This document shows positions 43,102 through 45,573 of a stretch of DNA of 64,000 bases, piece by piece (position 1 is the stretch's first letter; each line of letters opens with the position of its first letter). Below the pieces are notes generated by a model. It was not told where the DNA came from. It was given only the letters and a program-made list of their open reading frames with translations, and ran no database searches. The stretch is taken from assembly GCA_904419545.1 (NCBI GenBank), contig CAJFRY010000001.1, forward strand, positions 142,948 to 206,947, given 5' to 3'. A program made the position numbers and the translations under genes. Origin of the DNA: Candidatus Woodwardiibium gallinarum (GTDB lineage: Bacteria; Bacillota; Clostridia; Oscillospirales; CAG-382).

Positions 43102-43133
43102 ACAATAACCTCCCATTGGAAAGGAAAAGAAAA

Positions 43134-43820
43134 ATGAAAGAACAGATTTATACCATACCCGTATCCGAAGCCTTTGAAACGCGTAACGGCAAATGCCCGC
43201 TTTGTCTGCTGCGCGAGAAATGGGAGCAGAACGAGCTGGACCTGATCCTCGGCGCATCAATGATGGAGCCGGATATTCGTATCCAGACCAACGAAAAGGG
43301 TTTCTGCAACAATCATTTGCATAAGATGTACGAGAAGGGCAATCGCCTGCCGCTGGCGCTTACGCTTGAGAGCCATCTCGCCGAGGTGGAGAAGGGACTG
43401 AAAACGGGCGGCTTCTTTTCGCGTGATATCGCAGCCAAAAGCGTCAAGTATTTGGATGCGCTGGAGCATAGCTGCTATCTGTGCGATCGTATCAATGCTA
43501 CGCTGGAGCGGATGGTCGAGACCACCGCGCTGCTTTATGGAAGGGAGCCGGAATTCCGCAAGCTGTTTAACGAGCAGCGGATGTTTTGCCTGCCGCACTT
43601 CCGCGCGCTGCTGGTCAAAGGACGCGAAATTCTGGATAAAAAGCGCTACGAGGACTTCGTGCGCGATGCGTTCGCCGTGGTCTCCGGCTATGCGAAGGAA
43701 TTGGGCGGCGATGTTTCGTGGTTCTGTAAGAAATTCGATTACCGTTACGAAAAAGAAGATTGGAAGAATTCGAAGGACGCAGTGGAGCGCGCGCTCGATT
43801 TCCTCAACGGAACGGTATGA
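43134..43820 (+). CDS. DUF6062 family protein
   Basis: MKEQIYTIPVSEAFETRNGKCPLCLLREKWEQNELDLILGASMMEPDIRI; C/H-rich. Confidence 0.75.
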   Translation: MKEQIYTIPVSEAFETRNGKCPLCLLREKWEQNELDLILGASMMEPDIRIQTNEKGFCNNHLHKMYEKGNRLPLALTLESHLAEVEKGLKTGGFFSRDIAAKSVKYLDALEHSCYLCDRINATLERMVETTALLYGREPEFRKLFNEQRMFCLPHFRALLVKGREILDKKRYEDFVRDAFAVVSGYAKELGGDVSWFCKKFDYRYEKEDWKNSKDAVERALDFLNGTV

Positions 43821-43852: not shown

Positions 43853-43878
43853 AACCGTATGCGTTTATGCATACGGTT
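43853..43878 (+). terminator. probable rho-independent terminator
   Basis: AACCGTATGC-gtttat-GCATACGGTT then TTCTTATT. Confidence 0.65.
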
Positions 43879-43971
43879 TCTTATTCGGCGTATTCGGTGC
43901 TGCTCGGATACGGTTTCTGAAATTTCCTTTAGATGACATAATATGTGTCGCATAAAGGCTGGAAAGACGAA

Positions 43972-44075
43972 TTGTCCACATTTTCCACCGAGTTATCCAC
44001 ACATATTGAGCCGTGGCGGTGTCGAACTGCGTCAAACCGCAGGAATCTATCCACATATCCACAGATTTATCCACA
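43972..44075 (+). promoter_or_regulatory. cluster of DnaA boxes
   Basis: Same strand: TTGTCCACA 43972, TTTTCCACC 43981 (degenerate), TTATCCACA 43993, CTATCCACA 44047, ATATCCACA 44055, TTATCCACA 44067; two exact consensus, three one-mismatch. Confidence 0.75.
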
Positions 44076-44127
44076 TTGGATTATGGGGATTATGTCTCGT
44101 GATTACGCACGGTGAAAAGGGGAACCG

Positions 44128-45138
44128 TCAAACGCTTGCGGTTGCATACGCATTTTGGGAAAGGGGCGCGCGGCTGCCGGCTTGGAATTCATAATAGCCC
44201 TGCGCAGCGATCATGGCCGCGTTGTCTCCGCAAAGGGAAAGCGGCGGCAGATACAGCGCGCAGCCCTTCCGTTCACAAAGCTCGGAGACGGCGGCGCGCA
44301 GATGGGAGTTGGCGGCTACGCCGCCCGCCAGCACAAGTGCAGGTGCGTCTGTCCGTTCGAGCAGGAGCGATACGCGGGTCACGATTGTGCGCACGAGGGC
44401 TTCGGTAAACGAAGCGGCGATGTCTGCCTTGACCGCTTCCTCCAACGTCTGTCCGCGCAGATTCAAATTGTGGACGCAGTTAATCACTGCGGTTTTCAGG
44501 CCGGAGAAGGAAAAATCATACTCGTTGTTATGCACGGTGGCCGGGGTGAAGGGGAAGGCGTCTTTCCGGCCAATGGAAGCCAGCTTGTCCATCATCACGC
44601 CGCCGGGATAGGGAAGTCCGAGCACGCGCGCGGCTTTGTCAAAGGCTTCGCCGGCCGCGTCGTCCCGCGTCTGGCCGATACGCTTGAAATCGGTATAGCC
44701 GTCCACCTGAATGAGTGATGTGTCGCCGCCCGAGACGACCAGCGCAATGAATGGCGGCTCCAATTGCGGGTGAACAAGATAATTTGCGGCGATGTGCCCG
44801 CGGATGTGGTGCACGGGCACCAGCGGCTTGCCGGTTGCGCAGGCCAGTCCCTTTGCGAAGGACAGACCCGTCAGCAGCGCGCCGATAAGCCCCGGCTCGA
44901 CCGTTACGGCGATGGCGTCGACGTCGGCCATTGACAGACTCGCCTTTTCCAATGCGCTCCGTGTTACGCCGCAGATGGCCTCTGTGTGCGCACGGGAGGC
45001 GATTTCCGGAACAACGCCGCCGTACAGCTTATGTATTTCGATTTGCGAGGCGACGACGCTGGAGAGCAGCGTACGTCCGTCCTCCACGACCGCAGCGGCG
45101 GTCTCGTCACAGGAGCTTTCCAAACCCAAAATCCGCAT
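44128..45138 (-). CDS. tsaD: tRNA N6-adenosine threonylcarbamoyltransferase
   Basis: LGLESSCDETAAAVV, HHIRGHIAANY, VSGGDTSL, AGGVAANSHLR. Confidence 0.98.
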   Translation of the reverse strand: MRILGLESSCDETAAAVVEDGRTLLSSVVASQIEIHKLYGGVVPEIASRAHTEAICGVTRSALEKASLSMADVDAIAVTVEPGLIGALLTGLSFAKGLACATGKPLVPVHHIRGHIAANYLVHPQLEPPFIALVVSGGDTSLIQVDGYTDFKRIGQTRDDAAGEAFDKAARVLGLPYPGGVMMDKLASIGRKDAFPFTPATVHNNEYDFSFSGLKTAVINCVHNLNLRGQTLEEAVKADIAASFTEALVRTIVTRVSLLLERTDAPALVLAGGVAANSHLRAAVSELCERKGCALYLPPLSLCGDNAAMIAAQGYYEFQAGSRAPLSQNAYATASV

Positions 45139-45141
45139 TTT

Positions 45142-45573
45142 CTAAATCTCCAAATCTGCAAGGACGGCGTTCGTCCCGTTATAAAAGCCGCGGCGTTCGC
45201 CTACCGTACGGAATCCTTCGGTTCGGTAAAGCGCTTCGGCGGCGAGGTTGCCTTTTTCATATTCCAGTAAAATTTTTGAACAGCCCTGTATGCGCGCGTC
45301 AAACCGGATGTAGGTCAGCAAAGCGCGGCCTATGCCGCGGCGACGGAATTCCGGTTTGACCGCCAGATTGACGATTTGGATTTCATCTGCAACAAGGTAA
45401 TACGAGCAGATTCCGGCCAGAACGTCATCCTCAAACACGCCGAGGTAGCAGAAATCCTCTCGACCGAGCGAATCGGCGAGCTGCTCTGCCGACCACGCGG
45501 AACCCAGACAGGCCGCCTCGATGGAGGCGGCCTCGTCGATATGAGAGAGGGGAAGCGGTTTGATCCGGCGCAT
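45142..45573 (-). CDS. rimI: ribosomal-protein-alanine N-acetyltransferase (GNAT)
   Basis: VNLAVKPEFRRRGIGRALLTYI acetyl-CoA motif; next to tsaD. Confidence 0.9.
   Translation of the reverse strand: MRRIKPLPLSHIDEAASIEAACLGSAWSAEQLADSLGREDFCYLGVFEDDVLAGICSYYLVADEIQIVNLAVKPEFRRRGIGRALLTYIRFDARIQGCSKILLEYEKGNLAAEALYRTEGFRTVGERRGFYNGTNAVLADLEI

Follow-up and report, generated by a model that had tools for sequence, protein, structure and literature searches.

The window, a stretch of 64,000 nucleotides from the genome of Candidatus Woodwardiibium gallinarum, contains a convergent gap in which the 3' end of a DUF6062 gene faces the 3' end of tsaD, which we take to be the same gene as gcp. Six DnaA-box-like sites can be read directly from the window sequence in this gap, at positions 43972-44075 (Table 1). 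All of them lie on the plus strand, and tsaD, whose 3' end points at them, runs antiparallel to the boxes. They form two triplets, 74-75 bp from triplet to triplet, each composed of a box, an abutting box, a gap of 3 bp and a further box; the first two boxes of triplet II, CTATCCACA and ATATCCACA, overlap by one base. An earlier sequence-only reading had described a cluster of boxes at this place. Every box that it named was recovered at its position on the plus strand, and the weaker site that it mentioned corresponds to TTTTCCACC on the same strand. The sites are real, and what had been taken for a loose grouping is refined to two repeated triplets. A hairpin or RNA element was also considered and rejected: folded as single-stranded DNA, the region gives a modest structure (z -2.4), and conservation resides in the boxes and the flanking arms.

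Table 1 Features of the tsaD-side element and of its neighbours (window coordinates)
Feature	Position	Strand	Description
DUF6062 gene	43116..43820	+	3' end towards the element; Pfam PF19538, E 1.3e-80
Terminator-like hairpin of the DUF6062 gene	43853..43878	+	ahead of the element; pattern scan, consensus match only
Left arm	43932..43942	+	GATGACATAAT; family consensus GTTKACATAAT; ~37 bp ahead of the first box pair
DnaA-box triplet I	43972..44001	+	TTGTCCACA (43972-43980), TTTTCCACC (43981-43989), gag, TTATCCACA (43993-44001); offsets 9 and 12
Inter-triplet spacer	44002..44046	+	
DnaA-box triplet II	44047..44075	+	CTATCCACA (44047-44055), ATATCCACA (44055-44063), gat, TTATCCACA (44067-44075); offsets 8 and 12
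Right arm	44089..44099	+	ATTATGTCTCG, then ATTA; family consensus ATTATGTMAA
tsaD (gcp), tRNA threonylcarbamoyladenosine transferase	44128..45138	-	Pfam PF00814, E 8.8e-89
GNAT acetyltransferase (rimI-like)	45142..45573	-	directly upstream of tsaD; Pfam PF00583, E 4.5e-17

Box density and likely location of oriC

Exact copies of TTATCCACA are found 15 times in the 2.3-Mb genome, and sites with at most one mismatch to it 452 times. At this density a Poisson estimate gives ~1.5e-7 places at which five sites with at most one mismatch would lie on one strand within 104 bp. The triplet was searched for with the pattern TCCACN{3,4}TCCACN{6,8}TCCAC, with the same pattern read backwards as control; it has 7 matches in the genome, distributed over 5 loci, and the backwards pattern has none. 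These values exclude that many equivalent clusters arise by chance, and the genome-wide count that the sequence-only reading had suggested thus places the cluster well above the chance level. Additional DnaA-box triplets or pairs of this genome were noticed at C4:32591, C4:43850-43955, C4:44548 and C41:5445-5576 (contig and position); those on contig C4 are 10-22 kb away from dnaA.

The dnaA gene is located on this other contig (C4:54009-55373), where it is surrounded by dnaN, recF, gyrB, gyrA, rnpA and yidC, as read from the open reading frames. The gap between dnaA and dnaN also carries DnaA boxes and is likely the oriC of this genome; the tsaD-side cluster is therefore a non-oriC cluster. 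It has neither an adjacent dnaA nor a visible unwinding region, as an origin would. The earlier statements that dnaA, dnaN and gyrB are not nearby and that an AT-rich unwinding region is not obvious were both correct: all three genes reside on another contig, and no AT-rich unwinding stretch is seen in the letters of the cluster. The distance between tsaD and dnaA amounts to 184-312 kb in four other genomes (G070, G164, G219 and G247), all of them devoid of a tsaD cluster; the present genome is divided into 69 contigs.

Conservation of position, spacing and arms

The family was sampled with 63 genomes of 13 genera; tsaD was found in 58 of them, and 57 were usable for counts in the 3' region. 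Within 500 bp 3' of tsaD these 57 genomes contain 147 antiparallel boxes vs 4.8 in shuffled sequences, and the 500 bp before tsaD contain 4 boxes on both strands together. At least three antiparallel boxes 3' of tsaD are present in 34 of the 57 genomes, so that the cluster is kept in relatives, a point that the sequence-only reading had left to be checked. The most frequent distances between boxes are 9, 12, 21 and 75 bp, the spacing is rigid across genera, and the two-triplet layout is the same in most genera of the family. The strict triplet pattern was detected in 42/63 family genomes, usually 1-3 times and almost never backwards. This double-triplet geometry is new here.

In the family elements, the first triplet is preceded by the motif TTKACATAAT and the last one is followed by the reverse complement of this motif, ATTATGTMAA. 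The left arm mostly precedes the first box pair by ~37-38 or 47-48 bp, the longer distance being one helical turn beyond the shorter. Near the boxes of the family the two orientations were counted 35 and 15 times, compared to 1.3 expected per orientation, and nearly all occurrences of the motif in the ~450 kb of family DNA examined are at these elements. At 20 dnaA loci the arms are mostly lacking, and the Bacilli clusters examined yielded no arm-like motif; some other families of the order have the right-hand copy in direct instead of inverted orientation. A motif that is almost confined to these elements is a further new observation, and it suggests a partner protein that would bind to the arms.

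In some relatives all boxes of a triplet have changed together with the spacing kept, which is likewise new. In three genomes of genus g13 (L072, L073, L076) the 9/12 triplet is retained and all three boxes read TTNTCAACA; the triplet is TTGTCAACA-TTATCAACA-tag-TTATCAACA or a close variant, with one base changed per box. The triplet is also kept in genus g6 (L022, L026, L030), where the boxes have drifted to TTTCCCACA-like forms. Such a concerted change at fixed spacing is as expected of protein-binding sites and may hint at an altered DnaA specificity in the two genera.

The element is not restricted to tsaD. A second full element of this genome is located 3' of yifB (C5:40182-40261, corresponding to L013:7183-7265) and has a TTGACATAA arm, and many family genomes feature an additional element at this place, antiparallel to yifB. 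This conserved second copy is likewise new here. The tsaD-type element is found away from tsaD in G022-G024; the distance is ~11-13 kb for G023 and G024 (~12 kb for the latter). G009 has the DUF6062 gene between tsaD and the element. Because it is displaced in these genomes and repeated at yifB, the element appears to be kept for itself and not for the expression of tsaD. As a separate observation, four genomes of family f14 (L227-L230) have triplets at a common locus with GACATAA motifs nearby; neither tsaD nor yifB was found at that locus.

Named Bacillota genomes were reached by a search with PDB entry 8btg, which we take to be the DnaA of B. subtilis. Of 35 such genomes, 34 gave a position for tsaD, and the DNA was read for 30. 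The regions 3' of tsaD of these 30 contain 68 antiparallel boxes vs 3.15 in shuffles (7 in the largest shuffle) and 16 boxes on the other strand. At least three antiparallel boxes are present in 14 of the 30, among them Bacillus, Mesobacillus, Halobacillus, Lysinibacillus, Pseudoneobacillus, Siminovitchia, Planococcus, Ruminiclostridium and Tissierellales. Elements 3' of tsaD also occur in other families of the order to which the window belongs; none of 20 genomes of the order picked regardless of the cluster had at least three antiparallel boxes there, and several Lachnospiraceae, Paenibacillus and Clostridium genomes are without a tsaD cluster. Conservation is real but patchy, and common descent combined with losses would be the simplest reading of this patchiness. 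One genome of another family of the order (G260, C108:1688-1754) carries three overlapping triplets with a period of 20-21 bp, a small tandem array of boxes. We found no report on the conservation of the tsaD-end cluster in the literature searched, to which Ishikawa 2007 and Okumura 2012 did not belong.

A putative DnaA-sequestering site and its alternatives

The sequence-only reading had offered two functions, titration of DnaA or replication control on the one hand and control of transcription in the tsaD region on the other. The former is supported by the conserved position, strand and spacing and by the data available for the corresponding locus of B. subtilis. Downstream of gcp and ydiF lies one of the eight regions that are most strongly bound by DnaA in that species; it comprises 10 sites, has a Kd of 0.15 uM and favours ATP-DnaA 16-fold at 55 nM (PMC4447404); primers for tsaD carry gcp names (PMC6504816). 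The B. subtilis clusters titrate ATP-DnaA, and their nearness to oriC matters (PMC5010248). B. subtilis lacking six DnaA-box clusters initiates early (PMC5295017; PMC13220808). We consider it probable that the element is a non-oriC DnaA-box cluster that sequesters DnaA and restrains initiation, and thus the counterpart of the B. subtilis gcp (tsaD) cluster. DnaA would assemble cooperatively into a short oligomer on each of the two triplets; the bound cluster would sequester the initiator, by which untimely firing of oriC would be restrained, and a second protein, presumably bound at the arms, would shape or gate the DnaA complex. That DnaA binds and is titrated here in this organism is our inference. 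Since the tsaD end carries boxes in many relatives and is a DnaA-binding spot in B. subtilis, the element is probably an ancient replication brake. How Bacillota limit initiation is an open question, because B. subtilis is without homologues of Hda, SeqA, Dam, DiaA and IHF (PMC13220808). If Bacilli and Clostridia share a DnaA cluster at the same gene end, those of B. subtilis would be more than a local curiosity.

Titration alone may be an incomplete description, since a plain titration site needs neither a fixed geometry nor arms. A composite control site, in which the DnaA triplets act together with a dedicated protein on the TTKACATAAT arms as a clostridial counterpart of datA/DARS at two fixed places, is a tentative and rather unlikely extension; the arms represent a defined DNA bait for the missing regulator. 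They make a second protein likely and therefore leave room for a nucleotide switch as in datA/DARS of E. coli, by which triplet-bound DnaA and an arm protein would hydrolyse or exchange the nucleotide. In E. coli, datA and DARS2 rely on IHF and Fis. Arms and triplets at near-fixed distance resemble a multi-protein assembly, and the presence of two loci in a genome is reminiscent of control loci that come in pairs. However, the boxes of the present element all point one way, and switch activity of the datA/DARS type is not known from Bacillota, which counts against this explanation. The B. subtilis cluster, moreover, was only shown to titrate (PMC5010248), and a switch is in our view unlikely.

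We regard it as still less probable that DnaA on the cluster regulates tsaD or the DUF6062 gene, or that it is a roadblock or terminator for tsaD. A pattern scan detected no terminator-like site between tsaD and the element, the boxes are antiparallel to the upstream gene, be it tsaD or yifB, and DnaA is a transcription factor in B. subtilis (PMC4447404). On the other hand, the cluster is situated 3' of the gene and not at a promoter, the same element adjoins the unrelated gene yifB, and the displaced elements of G022-G024 and G009 are kept despite the broken gene order. The second function offered by the sequence-only reading could therefore not be upheld: a cluster at the 3' end of tsaD that survives separation from this gene is unlikely to control it.

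A mainly chromosomal role of DnaA-bound boxes, for example with the arms as half-sites for Xer-type or nucleoid proteins, is very unlikely. The XerD half of B. subtilis dif is similar to the arm TTATGTMAAC. Rok influences DnaA binding at other sites of B. subtilis (PMC4447404). Yet two pattern searches for dif failed to recover a site whose XerC arm matched, several of the matches were inside coding sequence, and no arm-like motif was detected in the clusters of Bacilli; with no dif recovered, XerD/dif half-sites are retained as a lead at most. Clustered DnaA boxes are a hallmark of origins and the dnaA-dnaN gap has boxes, too, but a relic or spare origin or a plasmid or phage fragment is scarcely credible, given that the likely oriC is elsewhere, that dnaA loci largely lack the arms, that a similarity search gave no plasmid match, that viral matches to arm plus box pair look chance-level with the third box in 0/80, and that the conserved position of the element argues against mobility.

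Comparison with known control sites

The DnaA of E. coli favours box pairs 2-3 bp apart, as in datA (...ACAgagTTATCCACA) (PMC11317965). The present element resembles datA in its non-oriC location and in having box pairs 3 bp apart, and triplet I even has the gag gap of datA; with DARS1 and DARS2 it shares the form of a short non-coding site with several DnaA boxes. However, datA needs IHF and promotes ATP hydrolysis, DARS2 works together with IHF and Fis to reactivate DnaA, and binding of DnaA is known for the B. subtilis cluster, whereas the present element is known from its sequence. Compared to the B. subtilis gcp-ydiF cluster, it differs by two 9/12 triplets bracketed by TTKACATAAT arms, by DUF6062 as the other neighbour and by a second copy at yifB. 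Both are nevertheless clusters of several DnaA boxes outside oriC in a convergent gap, and both are found at the same locus, the 3' end of gcp/tsaD, as judged from the published position in B. subtilis (PMC4447404) and from the sequences of relatives.
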